This document shows positions 2,646 through 43,719 of a stretch of 44,142 nucleotides of DNA, in pieces; within the stretch, counting starts at the first letter, position 1; every line of letters starts with the position of its first letter. A program made the position numbers and the translations under genes. A model generated the notes under the pieces. It saw only the letters and a list, made by a program, of their open reading frames with translations. It did no database searches and had not been told where the DNA came from. The stretch is from a virus. Location of the stretch: IMG/VR virus record IMGVR_UViG_3300025108_000006, positions 1-44,142 of that record. One strand, given 5' to 3'.

Positions 2646-4379
2646 ATGAATCTACCGGATATTCTGATAGCCGACATTGAAACAGATGGACTACTCCATC
2701 AGATGACCAAAGTGCACTGCATTTCGATTGGCACACTTGATGGCACGGTGACGTGCTACGCCGATCACCCTGATTACCCACCGATCAGACACGGCCTCGC
2801 CCGACTACGCACCGCTGATCGTGTTGTATTCCACAACGGCGTTGGGTTCGATTACCCAGCACTCGCGATGATCTACGGTGATGACGTGATGGATCGCAAC
2901 TTGATCTGGGACAGTCTTATTGTCTCACGTCTAGTCCAGCCCACCGGCAGACGTCACGGCCTCGCGGCATGGGGTGAACAACTTGGTTTCCCGAAAGGAG
3001 ACTACGACGATTGGTCTCGCTTCACGCCAGAGATGGGAGCGTATTGTGATCAAGACGTCGCCGTAACGACCAAGGTCTATCAGCACTTGCAGACGCTGAT
3101 CGATTACACGTTGGGTGCTGCGATTCAATTGGAGCATGACTTCGCTTGGGTCATCCATCTGCAAGAACAACACGGGTTTCGCTTAGACGTCGAAGCGGCA
3201 CAAGCGTTGGCGGTGGAGATGCGTGGCGAGATGGTGGAGATCGAAGCGGAACTGCAAGAAATCTTCCCGCCCATCACGCACGAAAGGTGGAGCGAAAAGA
3301 CCGGCAAGCGTCTCAAGGATCGTATAGAAATCTTTAATCCTGGTAGCCGTAAGCAGATCGCTGAACGCCTAATCGCAAAGTACAACTGGAAACCCAAAGT
3401 CTTCACCCCCGCCGGTAGTCCTCAGATTGATGAAGGCGTTTTGTCGATCCTCAAGTACCCAGAAGCCAAAGCGTTAAGCAGATACTTTCGGTGCCAAAAG
3501 CAACTTTCTCAGATCAGTGAAGGTGACAGCGGGTGGCTCAAGTGTGTCTCCAGACGTGGTTATGTCCACGGCAAGGTCAATACTCTTGGGACAACCACGT
3601 CCAGATGCTCACATTTCGGCCCGAACATGGGGAATATCGATAAGAAAGACCCACGGATGCGTGAGGTCTGGAAGCCAGACGTTGGTCACCTACTCGTAGG
3701 GATCGACGCAGACGCGCTTGAACTGCGAATGCTTGCGTCATACCTCGGCTTGTTCGATGAAGGTCGGTATCGCGATCAGCTATTACTGGGTGACAAAGAC
3801 AAAGGAACCGACGTCCATTCGATGACCGGCAAGCTGGTACAAATTGAAAATCGAAATGACGTAAAACGTCTCACATATGCATACCTCTACGGTGCGTCCG
3901 ACCGCAAACTTTCTGAAATCTTAAAGGACGCCGGTAGTCCGCTGAAAGGTAAGGAAGCACGTAAGCGTATCGGTGAAGGTGTCGTGGGTCTCGGTAAACT
4001 TTCAGACATCGTCGTTAAGAAATCCCAAAAGGGATACATCTTGGGTGTCGATAAGCGTCGTGTACCAACCAAGAGTGAACACTCGGCGTTAAACTTTTTG
4101 CTCCAATCGTGCGGGGCGATACTTATGAAAAAAGCCGTGCAGGTTTTCCACTTCGACCTCTGCGTCAGCGAGGGACTAGTGGTGAACGACCGGCCTGTTG
4201 GCTTTCACTACTGCGCCAACGTGCACGATGAAGTCCAACTGTCGTGCGAACCACAACTTGCAGAGACGTTGGGCAAACTCTTTGCCAAAGCAATCACCCT
4301 TGCAGGGGAACGATTAGGTCTCCGCTGTCCGACCTCTGGGTCATACGACATCGGCAAATCATGGCTCGAAACACACTAA
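2646..4379 (+). CDS. family A DNA polymerase (T7 gp5-like)
   Basis: A 577-residue polymerase with an N-terminal 3'-5' exonuclease (IADIETDGL, then HNGVGFDYPAL, then YCDQDVAVT) and a C-terminal polymerase domain. Motif A is IDADALELR, with D354, E359 and R361. Motif B is KRLTYAYLYGA. Motif C is VHDEVQ, with D528. These are the hallmarks of phage T7-type DNA polymerases. It is shorter than T7 gp5 (704 residues), mostly through shorter linkers. It follows the helicase by 5 bases and is followed by the exonuclease, so synthesis, priming and degradation of host DNA are expressed together. Confidence 0.96.
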   Translation: MNLPDILIADIETDGLLHQMTKVHCISIGTLDGTVTCYADHPDYPPIRHGLARLRTADRVVFHNGVGFDYPALAMIYGDDVMDRNLIWDSLIVSRLVQPTGRRHGLAAWGEQLGFPKGDYDDWSRFTPEMGAYCDQDVAVTTKVYQHLQTLIDYTLGAAIQLEHDFAWVIHLQEQHGFRLDVEAAQALAVEMRGEMVEIEAELQEIFPPITHERWSEKTGKRLKDRIEIFNPGSRKQIAERLIAKYNWKPKVFTPAGSPQIDEGVLSILKYPEAKALSRYFRCQKQLSQISEGDSGWLKCVSRRGYVHGKVNTLGTTTSRCSHFGPNMGNIDKKDPRMREVWKPDVGHLLVGIDADALELRMLASYLGLFDEGRYRDQLLLGDKDKGTDVHSMTGKLVQIENRNDVKRLTYAYLYGASDRKLSEILKDAGSPLKGKEARKRIGEGVVGLGKLSDIVVKKSQKGYILGVDKRRVPTKSEHSALNFLLQSCGAILMKKAVQVFHFDLCVSEGLVVNDRPVGFHYCANVHDEVQLSCEPQLAETLGKLFAKAITLAGERLGLRCPTSGSYDIGKSWLETH

Positions 4380-33686: not shown

Positions 33687-33715
33687 GGCACACTATCGGA
33701 CACACTATCGGACAC
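33687..33715 (+). promoter_or_regulatory. candidate phage RNAP promoter, tandem motif
   Basis: CACACTATCGGA is repeated back to back at 33689-33700 and 33701-33712 and followed by CAC. The 19-base segment GGCACACTATCGGACACAC (33687-33705) recurs with two changes at 40975-40993, upstream of the RNA polymerase. The ACACTAT core resembles the centre of T7/SP6-type promoters (CTCACTATAG, ACACTATAG). T7 has phi-OL in the corresponding left-end position. The promoter assignment is inferred. Confidence 0.4.
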
Positions 33716-33984
33716 GACCGGCGCAATCGCCTTGTTTTTATGGCGCTGTGCGATCCGATCCATATGTAAATCAAACACGGTCGTGATCTATTGGGCGCCC
33801 AAAGACATCGCGCCGGTGCCAAATGGTGCTGAATTCCGCTTGTTTTCCAATCGTTTACACTAATATGCGAACCACTGTTTTTTTCGTTTGACAATCGCAC
33901 AGCACGCAATGCAGTCTTACGTTATCGCGACTCGCTTGATCGCGTCTTACTGTACACAAAACGCATGACAAAAAGGAAAACAAA

Positions 33985-38807: not shown

Positions 38808-39080
38808 ATGAATCAAACGAACACACCTTCAGTTGCCGCGTGTGGCTCAACGACAGTCTGGGCAAACGGACCAATGGCTCCACCCCGTCACGACGCACTC
38901 CTTTCGTTAAACATCTCGACACCAAAAGACACTTTAAGAAGACAAACAGGAAACCAAACGTATGGCACATCAAAGTTACTCTCGGAACACCAAGGACGCG
39001 CGGATTTTACGTGCGAAAGCTGGGGATTACGTCAAGAAAGTTCGTATCGAACAAGAGATGACGCAGCGGGACTTAGCTGA
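38808..39080 (+). CDS. possible small ORF ahead of the regulator gene
   Basis: A 90-codon frame with a good ribosome site (TTAGGAA before ATG 38808) that overlaps the XRE gene by 119 bases. Its translation (MNQTNTPSVAACGSTTVWAN...) shows no domain. A second frame over the same bases, from GTG 38840 to 39061, reads more like a protein (WLNDSLGKRTNGSTPSRRTP, basic). Either one of these is real, or the region is an untranslated or leader-peptide region for the regulator. Only weak support. Confidence 0.25.
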   Translation: MNQTNTPSVAACGSTTVWANGPMAPPRHDALLSLNISTPKDTLRRQTGNQTYGTSKLLSEHQGRADFTCESWGLRQESSYRTRDDAAGLS

Positions 39081-39291
39081 AGCCCTTAATCTCAAGTACT
39101 ACACGTTCATTTCTCAGCTAGAGAACGGTCAGGGACGTCTGCCACCAAACCTCACGGTCCGTATGGCAATCGCTTTGAACCAAGACCCCAAAGAGTTCGC
39201 GTTGAAGATGCTGTCGTACTACGATCCGCATACACACATCGCAGTCACGGCGGGGGAAACACTACCGGATGACGAAACGGAACCAGAATGA
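38962..39291 (+). CDS. XRE/Cro-CI-type helix-turn-helix regulator
   Basis: A 109-residue protein. Residues about 20-75 form a Cro/CI-type HTH: YVKKVRIEQEMTQRDLAEAL, then NLKYYTFISQLENGQGRLPP, then NLTVRMAIALNQDPKEFALK. The Q-x-x-L-A-x-x-L and IxxxENG patterns are typical. The C-terminus is short and acidic, with no peptidase-type domain. AGGAAACC about 10 bases before ATG 38962 supports the start. Coupled through one small gene to the integrase, it is a good candidate for the lysis-lysogeny or integrase regulator, perhaps binding the palindrome or 10-bp repeats upstream. Confidence 0.85.
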   Translation: MAHQSYSRNTKDARILRAKAGDYVKKVRIEQEMTQRDLAEALNLKYYTFISQLENGQGRLPPNLTVRMAIALNQDPKEFALKMLSYYDPHTHIAVTAGETLPDDETEPE

Positions 39292-39617
39292 ACATTATAC
39301 AATTCCCTAGACCTACGGGTATCACACAAGGTGCGATCAATTTGCTACATGAAGTTGCTGTGTGTTGGTCCAAGAGTGAACCCGCGCCACTCACGGTCGC
39401 GTTTGGTCTCACTGACGAACAAGAGGCGTGGTGTGTCTTCAGCGACGGTCTTACTGACGAACCACGCTACTCCTTTTGGGAACAAGACTGTCGGACATAC
39501 TATATGGATCACCGTGTTGCTTGTCAGTGTGGTGACGTCCACCCGACCACCGCAAGGTCACTAAAGAAACTGATTGTTAGAATAAACGACGGAACAAAAC
39601 GAAAGGCAAACGAATGA
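39288..39617 (+). CDS. small protein between regulator and integrase
   Basis: A 109-residue protein starting MNIIQFPRPTGITQGAINLL. It has a beta-rich centre (PLTVAFGLTDEQEAWCVFSD) and cysteines in CRTYYMDHRVACQCGDVHP, which could bind a metal. No family is recognised. It overlaps both the regulator and the integrase by 4 bases (ATGA), so all three are translated as one unit. Confidence 0.6.
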   Translation: MNIIQFPRPTGITQGAINLLHEVAVCWSKSEPAPLTVAFGLTDEQEAWCVFSDGLTDEPRYSFWEQDCRTYYMDHRVACQCGDVHPTTARSLKKLIVRINDGTKRKANE

Positions 39618-40753
39618 ACTATTCGCTATTCCAGCGACCACGAAGTAGCTACTGGTGGGCTAAGTTCCCGTCAGTAGACCGCGAAGGGAAGGTCGTAAAG
39701 TACCACCGCAAGTCCACTAAGCGCACCTCAAAGAGTGAAGCGCATAGGGTGGCTCAAGCACTCGTTAAGCATGAAGCGGACTATGGTCAGCTTGGTGTCC
39801 GCAAACAGATGACCATTGGTGAAGCCGCACAGCGTTACATCGATCAACTGGATGATCCCCAGGGATACTGTTCGCTGTTTGCCTCACGCATAAAGTCCAG
39901 TAACTCGCGAGTAACCAAAGACAGTTCAATTGATCAACTGGATCGCCAACTGCTTAACGATTTGAAAGCACAGCGGTTGGCTCAAGGTCTCTCCAATAGT
40001 TATATCAACATGGAACTGTCGTTTTGGATCACGGTCTACAAACGCGCACAAAAAGACTTTGGCGCGGCGGTCAACACTACGACAGACCTCAAAGAACTGT
40101 CACTAAAGGTCACGCAGAAAACACGGTATCTGATGGACGGCGAAGAGACCCGCCTGTTGAGCGAACTGGACCCACACCGTGATGTCTACAACCGACCTTA
40201 CGCCCAGCGCATAGGTACGGCACGTCAGGAGATGCTCCAGAACCAATACGACCTTGTGATCTTTCTGTTGGACACCGGTGCGCGGTACATGGAAGTCGCA
40301 CAAGTCCCGTGGTCCGCTATCGATTACGCCAATTGGCAGACGGTTAACCTCTACCGCACCAAGGTTGGCAAAGAGGGTAACCTCAAGATGACATCACGTC
40401 TGCGTCAAATCTTGCAGCGACGTCACGCACAGTACGGCAACCACCCGTATGTCTTCCCGTCTTGGAAGCACGACAAAGAACCAATGGCTGGTGACCGTAA
40501 GTCCATTCGTGACGCCATCACCCGCGCTGGTCTCAACACACCGTCGATGATCAAGCGGTACGGTAGGTTCACCCCGCACTCGCTACGTCACACCTTTGCG
40601 TCACGCCTAGTGCAGGGCGGGATGTCACTCTACGGTGTCAGCAAATTGCTTGGACACTCGAACACCTCAATGACAGAACGGTACGCCCACCTGTCACCGT
40701 CAGCACTGGCAGATCAAGCCGTAGACATATTGGAGCAATCGCATGACTTATGA
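39614..40753 (+). CDS. int: tyrosine recombinase / integrase
   Basis: A 379-residue integrase with the complete catalytic set: R224 in DTGARYMEV, a lysine in RTKVGKEGNLKM, H322 and R325 in PHSLRHTFASRL, H348 in LLGHSNTSM, and nucleophile Y357 in TERYAHL. The N-terminal part has arm-binding and core-binding type segments (YWWAKFPSVDREGKVVKYHR...). It should join phage DNA into the host chromosome at an att site. Position just upstream of the RNA polymerase is as in marine podophages of the P-SSP7 and HTVC019P type. A nearby regulator gene and an inverted repeat downstream suggest a working integration module. Confidence 0.95.
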   Translation: MNYSLFQRPRSSYWWAKFPSVDREGKVVKYHRKSTKRTSKSEAHRVAQALVKHEADYGQLGVRKQMTIGEAAQRYIDQLDDPQGYCSLFASRIKSSNSRVTKDSSIDQLDRQLLNDLKAQRLAQGLSNSYINMELSFWITVYKRAQKDFGAAVNTTTDLKELSLKVTQKTRYLMDGEETRLLSELDPHRDVYNRPYAQRIGTARQEMLQNQYDLVIFLLDTGARYMEVAQVPWSAIDYANWQTVNLYRTKVGKEGNLKMTSRLRQILQRRHAQYGNHPYVFPSWKHDKEPMAGDRKSIRDAITRAGLNTPSMIKRYGRFTPHSLRHTFASRLVQGGMSLYGVSKLLGHSNTSMTERYAHLSPSALADQAVDILEQSHDL

Positions 40754-40952
40754 TCAAATGATAAACGACCTGTTCTACCTTTGCATAGAGATACTGGTGG
40801 TGATGGGTAAAGAACTCGGCATGACCTACGAAGAGATCAACATCTGGTTCTTTGTGATCCTTCATCCGCTAGTCACTATCAGTCTTCTTGTGATGCTTTG
40901 GGTCCAACGGTCGCTGCACTATCGGACCTTGCGAAAAATACTTTTAAACTGA
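40743..40952 (+). CDS. small membrane protein upstream of RNA polymerase
   Basis: A 69-residue protein: MTYDQMINDLFYLCIEILVV as an amphipathic helix, then GMTYEEINIWFFVILHPLVT, then ISLLVMLWVQRSLHY as a transmembrane helix, with a basic end. The pattern G-M-T-Y-E-E-I-N-x-W-x-F followed by HP in the membrane recurs in small proteins of marine podophages near the RNA polymerase. The function is unknown. It overlaps the integrase by 11 bases. Confidence 0.65.
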   Translation: MTYDQMINDLFYLCIEILVVMGKELGMTYEEINIWFFVILHPLVTISLLVMLWVQRSLHYRTLRKILLN

Positions 40953-40974
40953 TGCTTGATTACTGTTTTTTTTT

Positions 40975-40993
40975 GGCGCACTGTCGGACACAC
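40975..40993 (+). promoter_or_regulatory. candidate phage RNAP promoter motif upstream of RNAP gene
   Basis: GGCGCACTGTCGGACACAC matches the left-end motif at 33687-33705 in 17 of 19 positions and follows a run of nine Ts. A shorter relative, CACTATCGGACC, lies at 40918-40929 in the end of the preceding gene. Two near-copies in the two non-coding regions where T7-like phages need regulatory sites suggest a promoter or a terminal-region signal. Confidence 0.4.
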
Positions 40994-41047
40994 TTCAAAT
41001 TTACTGTACCCGACATGACGTCAGAAGGAGCGTAAAAAGACAACGAC

Positions 41048-41135
41048 TTCAAGGGATTACTGAAGGTCATCACTGTGTACACGCACAGTGAATCATATTT
41101 AAGCCATACCGGCTGATGATCCAAAGTCCCTTGAA
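41048..41135 (+). ncRNA. candidate structured RNA element between integrase and RNAP
   Basis: By eye the + strand folds into a compact three-way junction. P1 pairs 41048-41058 (TTCAAGGGATT) with 41125-41135 (AGTCCCTTGAA), 11 pairs with one wobble. P2 pairs 41065-41072 (GGTCATCA) with 41114-41121 (TGATGATC). P3 is CTGTG and CACAG (41073-41077/41084-41088) around TACACG. P4 is GCC and GGC (41103-41105/41111-41113) around ATACC. P3 and P4 each abut P2 with no unpaired base, which is unlikely for random sequence. The element is not a tRNA. It may be an RNA leader element or, as DNA, an integrase site. Confidence 0.45.
41070..41091. other. 8-bp inverted repeat, possible integrase attachment core
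   Basis: TCACTGTG (41070-41077) and CACAGTGA (41084-41091) are perfect inverted arms around the 6-base spacer TACACG. Tyrosine recombinase cores consist of inverted arms around a 6-8 base spacer, and attP normally lies close to int. This site is 320 bases after the int stop. Competing reading: a hairpin in the structured RNA above. Confidence 0.4.
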
Positions 41136-41169
41136 ACCCTAAGAAAAATCGATACCGATCAACAGGCTA

Positions 41170-41196
41170 CAGTAAGCTTCGATTAATAACTTACTG
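41170..41196 (+). promoter_or_regulatory. hairpin just before RNAP ribosome site
   Basis: CAGTAAG (41170-41176) and CTTACTG (41190-41196) are perfect inverted 7-base arms around an AT-rich 13-base loop. The hairpin ends 8 bases before the AAGGA ribosome site of the RNA polymerase gene and might modulate its translation. Confidence 0.45.
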
Positions 41197-41214
41197 AATT
41201 CAAGGACTTAACGA

Positions 41215-43719
41215 ATGACAAAAAATGACACACTTTTGGACACACCAGAAGATCGCGCAGTAGCTTACGACAACGCAGCGACACTCGAAGAAATACAGAT
41301 TATCCACGAAATGGCTGGCATCGATGAGGGCATAAAGAAGTATCGCGATTCGCTTCTGGACCCCAAACTGAAGCTGGCAGAGACTGCCGCCGGTCGGAAG
41401 ATTTTTGCCGACATGATGCGAACCTTAGTCCCTGCAATCGAAGACGCGCAAGACGCAGCAATCGAAGGGATCGTCAACAGCGGCAAGGGTAGTCGCGCCG
41501 TCTGGTGGTGGCACATCTCGTTCATCAGTGCCGAGAAGCTGGCGATGATGACCGTCAAGACGATCTTGGGGATACGCACTGGTGACTTTTGTCACGGTCG
41601 ATCAGCCACGTCGATCACCTTGGAAATCGGTGTGGCAGTGCGCCAACAGATTGAGTTCCAACGGTGGCAAGCGACAAGCAAGAAGACGTCGCAAGAGACC
41701 GGCGGTCCTGACCTTGCAGCCAAGCTGATCAGCCGCGCAAAGAATTTCAATCAGCGACAGTGGGGCAACTGGACCCGCAAGATCGATGAAATCGAAACGC
41801 TTGATTGGTCTCGCGATCAAAGAGGACACATTGGGGCCAAACTGTTGCAGCTTGCGGTCACCAATACTGATGGCTTCTTCATTCTGAAATACGTGCAGAT
41901 GCGTAACAAGACACAACGACAAGTCTTTCTGTCAAACGAGTGTCAAGCGATGATCGAAGACATCCACAGCCGTGTCGAGGTGGTCACCCCCGCAATCAAA
42001 CCAATGCTGATAGCGTCCAAACCGTGGAAGTGGTGTGAGCGTCTAGGTCGCTACAAGGGTGGCTACTGCATGGTCAAAATGGACTTCATACGTGGGGGTC
42101 TGCACAAGCACACAGCTAGCCTTACTGATCCTGTCAGCCAGACCACGCTCGACGCCGCCAACAGTCTCGGTGCTGTGCCGTACTGTGTTGACGAGCCAAT
42201 CCTTGATGTGGCGATGGAGATATACAATCAGGGCTTAGAGATCATTGAGTATCTTCCAAAGCCAGACCCTGTCGCCCTGCCCGACCGTCTCGAAGACGAT
42301 AAGTGGGACCGCATGTCCAAAAAGGAACGGGCGCAGTGGAAATACAATCTGACCAAGCTGCACGAAAAGAACGCCAGTGACGTCAGCAAACGTGAGAGTG
42401 CGATCCGCAAGTTCCATCTGTCCAACGACCACCGTGGTCTCGAACTGTTCCACCCGATCAAGATGGACACACGGGGCCGATTCTACTACACGACCCCAGA
42501 TTGGAACCCTCAAGGAGACGGGCTGGCCCGTGGGACCATGCGGTTCGCCAATGGTGTCGCGCTGGGTCCGCGTGGTTTGTACTGGTTGGCTGTCCGACTG
42601 TGTAACACCTACGGAAACGACAAGGTGACCTTTGACGAAATGCAAGTCTGGGCGGCTGAACATCACGACCTCATCGAAGACAGCGCAGTGCAACCCTTTG
42701 ACGGCTTCCAGTTCTGGGCGTCTGCCGACAGTCCGCTCGAATTTTTACAGACGTGCATGGAGTGGACCGCCGCCACCGGCTGTGACAACCCTGAGAACTT
42801 CCTGTCTACCCTGCCGGTCCACCAAGACGGCTCGAACAATGGTCTGCAATTGATGTCACTGCTTGGGCGCGATCCGGTTGGCGCAAAGCTGACTAATTGT
42901 TCGTCTGAAAATGCACGGTTTGACATCTACAGTGAGACTGCCGACGTGGTGAACGCTCTGATCGCTGAAGACATCCGCATGGGCAAGCGTACAGAAGAGG
43001 CACACCGCTGGGTTGGCAACGTGGGTCGTGCTGAATGCAAACGAGCGTGTATGACCACGTCGTATGGTGTCACTCCAAGAGGGATACAAGACCAGTTGAT
43101 CTCGGACGGGTTCGTAGACAAGCTGGACGGTGATCTTCTGAAGAACGCGGCGTACCTACGGGACAAACTGGTGATCGCATTGGAGAAAACCGTAGTCGCC
43201 AGCCGTCCGATCATGGATTACTTCCAGCAAGTCGCGACGGCACTGGCAGAAAAAGGTGTTGCAATGCAGTGGCGCACACCAGCCGGTACAACGATCCAGC
43301 AATCGTACTGGAACGTCAGTAAGACGGACATCAAGACGGTCATGGGGTCATATTTTCTTTGGGACGAGAACCCGTTGGGTGGTCTCAACAGCCGCAAGCA
43401 AAGCCTCGGAGCATCGCCCAACGTGATCCACTCGCTGGATGCCGCTTTGATGCACCGGATGATTGTCGATCTCAAAGTGCAGGGCGTAACGGACGTGTGT
43501 GCGATACACGATTCATTTGCAGTTCATCCGTCCAACGTAGACATGATGAGAAACAGCATCCGGTCTACCGCTGCCGACATCTTTAAGGGCGATTGGATCG
43601 CTGATGAGTTCCACCCGTATGTCCGACGTAAAGCTCAAGGTGCAGACCTACCGGAGCCACCAGCGCAGGGAACTTTCGACCCCAAAGAGGTGCTAGAAGC
43701 CCCGTATTTCTTCGCGTAA
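41215..43719 (+). CDS. single-subunit DNA-directed RNA polymerase (T7 gp1-like)
   Basis: An 834-residue T7-type RNA polymerase. Key motifs are HPIKMDTRGRFYYTTPDWNP (the D-x-R-G-R region) and motif A PVHQDGSNNGLQ with D538. Motif B is ECKRACMTTSYG with K609 and Y617, and motif C is AIHDSFAVHP with D766. It also has ASPNVIHSLDAALM before motif C, and a C-terminus ending YFFA, like the T7 FAFA foot. It should transcribe the replication and virion genes from phage-specific promoters. AAGGA precedes the ATG by 7 bases. The gene lies between a structured leader and a hairpin-rich terminator, so its level is probably controlled at RNA level. Confidence 0.97.
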   Translation: MTKNDTLLDTPEDRAVAYDNAATLEEIQIIHEMAGIDEGIKKYRDSLLDPKLKLAETAAGRKIFADMMRTLVPAIEDAQDAAIEGIVNSGKGSRAVWWWHISFISAEKLAMMTVKTILGIRTGDFCHGRSATSITLEIGVAVRQQIEFQRWQATSKKTSQETGGPDLAAKLISRAKNFNQRQWGNWTRKIDEIETLDWSRDQRGHIGAKLLQLAVTNTDGFFILKYVQMRNKTQRQVFLSNECQAMIEDIHSRVEVVTPAIKPMLIASKPWKWCERLGRYKGGYCMVKMDFIRGGLHKHTASLTDPVSQTTLDAANSLGAVPYCVDEPILDVAMEIYNQGLEIIEYLPKPDPVALPDRLEDDKWDRMSKKERAQWKYNLTKLHEKNASDVSKRESAIRKFHLSNDHRGLELFHPIKMDTRGRFYYTTPDWNPQGDGLARGTMRFANGVALGPRGLYWLAVRLCNTYGNDKVTFDEMQVWAAEHHDLIEDSAVQPFDGFQFWASADSPLEFLQTCMEWTAATGCDNPENFLSTLPVHQDGSNNGLQLMSLLGRDPVGAKLTNCSSENARFDIYSETADVVNALIAEDIRMGKRTEEAHRWVGNVGRAECKRACMTTSYGVTPRGIQDQLISDGFVDKLDGDLLKNAAYLRDKLVIALEKTVVASRPIMDYFQQVATALAEKGVAMQWRTPAGTTIQQSYWNVSKTDIKTVMGSYFLWDENPLGGLNSRKQSLGASPNVIHSLDAALMHRMIVDLKVQGVTDVCAIHDSFAVHPSNVDMMRNSIRSTAADIFKGDWIADEFHPYVRRKAQGADLPEPPAQGTFDPKEVLEAPYFFA

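Follow-up and report, generated by a model that had tools for sequence, protein, structure and literature searches.

Between the integrase gene and the RNA polymerase gene of a T7-like phage lies a non-coding stretch of 88 nt with a strong predicted fold, which raises the question of whether the fold is an RNA in its own right or a part of the site at which the phage integrates. The phage is represented by IMG/VR virus record IMGVR_UViG_3300025108_000006, positions 1 to 44,142, and this whole stretch of 44,142 nt is referred to as the window.

Genes around the element and its fold

The window carries T7-like genes, namely those for a single-subunit RNA polymerase (RNAP), a head–tail adaptor, a tail protein, and a terminase. 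The genes around the element are as follows:

38962-39291: HTH protein, upstream of the element
39614..40753, + strand: tyrosine integrase (int), 379 aa (PF00589, E 1.3e-23; PHROG integrase), with R224, K250, H322, R325, H348, and Y357 all present
40743..40952, + strand: small ORF, 69 aa, between int and the putative attP, with counterparts in many relatives
41215..43719, + strand: T7-type single-subunit RNAP, 834 aa (PF00940, E 1.4e-85; PHROG 414)

The six integrase residues are invariant in a five-member alignment, and an intact tyrosine integrase, the partner that an attP calls for, is encoded beside the element. The 69-aa ORF has no family match in Pfam and PHROG searches. The RNAP is merely ~25–28% identical to the best-matching phage records, and the relatives used for comparison come from viral contigs, with RNAP identities to the window of 48 to 100%; L001 adds no independent variation, because its RNAP matches the window at 100% and its element is identical.

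The 88 nt at 41048–41135 (+ strand) have a minimum free energy (MFE) of −33.8 kcal/mol; dinucleotide shuffles average −16.7 ± 3.0 (z −5.64), and none of 200 shuffles folds as low. The structure is real and beyond chance as a fold, and so withstands the comparison with shuffled controls that the original prediction had named as a possible refutation; the minus strand of the same element folds with a z of −3.65. The element is also non-coding and placed between integrase and RNAP as first described, since the small ORF ends at 40952 and the RNAP gene starts at 41215, and the int–RNAP gap holds no ORF of at least 60 aa. No tRNA or tmRNA gene was found in the window, in line with the earlier remark that the element does not look like a tRNA. 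The parts of the element are as follows:

41048..41058, + strand: left arm of the outer stem P1, TTCAAGGGATT, covarying stem
41059..41124, + strand: inner region, hypervariable, putative attP core, which forms P2, P3, and P4 in the window phage
41070..41091, no strand assigned: 8-6-8 inverted repeat TCACTGTG-TACACG-CACAGTGA, the P3 hairpin as RNA
41125..41135, + strand: right arm of P1, AGTCCCTTGAA, covarying stem

P1 consists of 11 pairs including one U-G (41048–41058/41125–41135), and 10 of the 11 are present in the MFE structure. P2 has seven contiguous pairs (41065–41071/41115–41121), with two further pairs below it in the MFE structure, in which P3 has seven pairs and P4 four. All four helices of the original prediction are present, and its counts of 11, 8, 5, and 3 pairs are altered for the inner three. 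The junction had also been called perfectly stacked; P3 and P4 do abut P2 without unpaired bases, but a spacer of 12 unpaired bases separates P3 from P4.

The inner region as a putative attachment core

The inner 66 nt vary strongly between phages with nearly identical flanks. Between the window and L003, 78 of 79 positions of the right flank and 277 of 286 at the 5′ end of the RNAP gene are identical, compared with 27 of 66 (41%) in the inner region; inner identity to the window is 33/66 for L026 and 58/66 for L002. The inner hairpins differ by phage: the window has P2–P4, L003 a perfect stem of 12 bp, and the P2–P4 junction is common only to the window and its close relative L002. Because each relative has a different inner hairpin, the three-way junction is a property of the window's particular core. 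A conserved three-way junction was rejected on the grounds of this hypervariability, and P2, in which compensatory changes had been anticipated, does not recur as a homologous helix beyond L002.

These comparisons bear on the proposal of a free-standing new structured RNA in which the three-way junction is functional, be it a leader, a riboswitch, or a small RNA. The strong fold would be expected of such an RNA, and so would the L002 substitutions in P1, P2, and P4, all of which preserve pairing, but the junction is conserved no further than L002, half tRNAs occupy the same slot in other relatives, and no Rfam family reaches its gathering score in the window or in six relatives. This reading is very improbable. 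The best sub-threshold Rfam match, RT-9 (22.6 vs 46.1 bits), and a match to hammerhead HH9 were both rejected, since they fall well short of the gathering score.

In about a dozen relatives, the int–RNAP gap carries the 3′ half of a tRNA in antisense, from the CCA end to the anticodon. The half tRNA is that of tRNA-Met in L008–L010, L013–L015, L021, L025, L029, L030, and L149, and that of tRNA-Pro in L006 and L007; relatives in which RNAP directly follows int or the small ORF (e.g., L017, L018, L144–L146, and L148) have no core there. An antisense half tRNA of this kind is what typically identifies the attP core of a tyrosine integrase, and as the slot is filled by a half tRNA in relatives, the inner region of the window is read as an attP core. 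The window element is most probably the region of the attP core in a temperate, T7-like marine podovirus whose gene order is int–attP–RNAP.

The arrangement has parallels in known phages. The tyrosine integrase adjoins the attachment site in P-SSP7, S-TIP37, HTVC019P-type phages, and CRP-3, to which the tRNA-derived cores of the window's relatives also correspond, and int lies directly before RNAP in P-SSP7 and HTVC019P, as in the window. In known T7-like phages with the int–RNAP gene order, attP lies between the two genes, and integration of T7-like cyanophages requires int plus the downstream attP (PMC8776855); roseophage CRP-3 integrates into tRNA-Met (PMC6918029). Unlike temperate T7-like attP sites, the window core is not derived from a tRNA and is enclosed by a covarying stem.

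No tRNA is recognisable in the cores of the window, L002, L003, L026, and L143. In a search for the host attB, none of 84,980 species genomes gave an exact match to a 22-mer from the window core, a similarity search of the core in plasmids and phages found none, and an RNAP profile search of genome contigs confirmed no prophage relative. Because the core has no recognisable tRNA and the 22-mer no exact match, the attP of the window is assigned from its position and its relatives, and its own core would be a functional attP on these grounds. The layout of the 8-6-8 repeat at 41070–41091 appears typical of a tyrosine-recombinase core site, and the L143 core (ACCAGAC-GTCCAT-GTCTGGT), in which short inverted repeats likewise flank six bases, would have the same layout. 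The hypervariable core amid near-identical flanks suggests that attachment specificity may change fast among close relatives.

Candidate arm-type sites are found outside the element:

near 40914-40928: weaker further copy of the left candidate arm-type site
40976..40992, + strand: left candidate integrase arm-type site, GCGCACTGTCGGACACA, direct repeat with 41228
41228..41244, + strand: right candidate integrase arm-type site, ACACACTTTTGGACACA, inside the RNAP 5′ coding region

The direct repeat, about GCACACTATNGGACACA, flanks the core at 40976 and 41228. Taken as 20-nt repeats at 40974 and 41226, the copies are 80% identical and lie on both sides of the core, as arm-type sites should. Their counterparts flank the core in most relatives that bear a tRNA; in L022, a phage with int and no tRNA core, they are degenerate. 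As candidate arm sites of the integrase, these repeats are preferable to P1. The direct repeat was also considered as a phage late promoter and rejected, as a scan allowing up to two mismatches placed most of its copies near int/attP and at 33.7 kb, with no late-gene series. At 33688–33716, two head-to-tail copies of the arm repeat (GCACACTATCGGACACACTATCGGACACG), 12 bp apart, lie in non-coding DNA a long way from attP; a C-rich stretch close by is possibly a genome end. In the gap of L022, positions 3886–3923 form a 13-pair hairpin, TGCAGTCTCACTG/CAGTGAGGCTGCG.

The outer stem P1 across relatives

Judged by itself, P1 stands out only marginally when the entire 262-nt gap is shuffled, as 3 of 60 shuffles match it, so that comparison with relatives was needed, and it is from them that its support stems. 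The eleven pairs were placed in register in nine sequences from six lineages; 94.9% of the cells are paired, a share biased towards structure by the hand alignment of the arms around TCA/TTA. Six of the eleven pairs are changed on both sides (16 such cells), and none of 500 shuffles reaches the paired percentage or the covariation score, so that the compensatory changes expected in P1 are in fact seen. Sliding the registers by 1–3 columns lowers the paired share to 25–48%, and the pairing of each left arm with its own right arm ranks first of 720 pairings across the six lineages.

The 11-pair P1 is present in the window, L002, L003, and L026. L143 has a 13-bp stem around its non-tRNA core, and in L006, L007, L008/L010, and L149, a P1-type stem of 12–15 pairs surrounds the half tRNA. 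L006 and L007 both have a tRNA-Pro core and share 82% identity in their integrases, yet three adjacent positions differ between the two phages in both arms. The P1-type outer stem is absent from L013, L015, L025, and L029. In these four and in L014, a phage-supplied strand pairs with part of the tRNA acceptor/T-stem in place of the outer stem, and this strand changes along with the tRNA variant (L025 vs L029). L021 has neither the stem nor such a strand.

A strong rival explanation is that the P1 arms are inverted binding sites for a protein (integrase, excisionase, or host factor) in an intasome, with pairing as a by-product of one specificity. Its strength comes from a fixed span, a shared arm motif, and a coding-strand bias that is not significant. 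The window, L002, L003, L026, and L143 all have a span of exactly 88 nt despite their differing contents, which suggests a DNA-geometry constraint; the arms share the motif TCA.....TTA, and the right arms in all core-bearing relatives resemble TCAATGGGTTAC. The mean folding z is −4.95 on the coding strand and −4.45 on the other (p 0.13). The only standard pairs in P1 other than Watson–Crick are G-U/U-G on the int-to-RNAP strand, with no A-C in columns 2–10, although these wobble pairs are small in number as evidence on the strand. Against DNA sites of one specificity, five positions vary between lineages yet match within each, even with 82%-identical integrases, the separate direct repeat at 40976 and 41228 is the better arm-site candidate, and the left sites are missing in L013, L015, L025, and L029, where another helix stands. 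Binding sites as the explanation of P1 are possible but rather unlikely.

The rival also draws on the HTVC019P-type pelagiphages. Inverted repeats bracket the content of the int–RNAP gap in these and in HTVC120P-type phages, with spans of about 150–162. Like the window, the HTVC019P-type phages have a bracketing inverted repeat, but in theirs the span is fixed at ~153 and the arms carry the conserved motif CAACTATYCNCTA (L181, L183–L189, and L192–L195), which points to protein-binding sites; the pelagiphage bracket is thus an analogy and may not be homologous. Fragments resembling tRNA-Leu or tRNA-Cys lie inside the bracket in some of them. A bracket common to all T7-like phages was rejected, as P-SSP7 and CRP-227 either lack one or have none that is significant.

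A possible role on the int–RNAP transcript

A covarying stem around an attachment site could act on the transcript. The inner 66 nt (P2–P4) would be the exchangeable core, with P1 bracketing the crossover. If the crossover takes place in the core, where it is to be expected in relatives with a tRNA, the left arm of P1 and int would pass to one prophage end and the right arm and RNAP to the other; since integration would part the arms, the only transcript able to form the stem would be one made from unintegrated DNA and extending from int to RNAP. On such a transcript, the stem may be where processing occurs or where decay sets in from the 3′ side of int, with the RNAP message separated, and integration would switch it off, as with sib of phage lambda.

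Retroregulation by lambda sib works through an RNase III mechanism. There, int is lowered via the sib element downstream of it (PMC5300877). As with sib, a hairpin on the same transcript strand would lie 3′ of int in the unintegrated phage and be parted from int by integration, an agreement in position that is drawn from the P1 arms flanking the tRNA core in relatives. In contrast to sib, which lies beyond attP, the window stem would span the crossover, and the likeness is one of position. The processing step at the stem is proposed by analogy.

Phage LUZ100, which has the same gene order, offers a different precedent: much int transcription, indeed most int transcripts, ends in the gap, with some low-level read-through into RNAP (PMC10134795). 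Its order of int, T4 terminator, phi1 promoter, and RNAP resembles the window in having a regulatory hairpin in the int–RNAP gap, and T4 is an experimentally mapped intrinsic terminator in the equivalent gap, whereas the window has no evident U-run terminator. The hairpins could nevertheless terminate or attenuate transcription between int and RNAP, and P3 was indeed flagged as terminator-like. That flag is a single weak site against 0.5 expected, no better than in shuffles; P1 and P3 lack the directly following U run that, with a GC-rich hairpin, marks an intrinsic terminator, and U tails are missing at the corresponding place in L003, L026, and L143. A terminator is improbable.

The most likely role of P1 is at the RNA level, in processing or retroregulation of the int–RNAP transcript, although taken alone this role is tentative. 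The explanation as a whole, an attP core bracketed by P1 with the stem acting on the int–RNAP transcript, is moderately favoured. That the stem straddling the attachment site is an mRNA-level sensor of the integration state, tuning int and RNAP, is a more speculative step and doubtful as yet, and the timing of polymerase expression raised by the original prediction could possibly be achieved through the outer stem P1. In T7-like phages, attP separates int from the polymerase gene, and a search for stable lysogens often fails. A bracketing stem that shows compensatory changes and would be split by integration offers a concrete link between the integration state and the int–RNAP message, and this link bears on the lysis–integration switch of T7-like phages.

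Two further elements lie in the gap:

40982..41015, + strand: upstream stem TGTCGG/CCGACA, overlapping the left direct repeat
41165..41200, + strand: CTACAGTAA...TTACTGAA pair ahead of the RNAP gene, with similar pairs in relatives

L026 keeps the upstream stem with changed pairs (TCTTGG/CCAAGA), and the repeat itself is degraded there. The pair at 41165–41200 is likely a promoter or operator region. Its TACAGTAA / TTACTGAA elements recur in relatives, and TTTACTGTA-like copies occur elsewhere in the window (15 observed vs 7.6 expected); together, these elements and copies are possible operators for the HTH protein encoded at 38962–39291.
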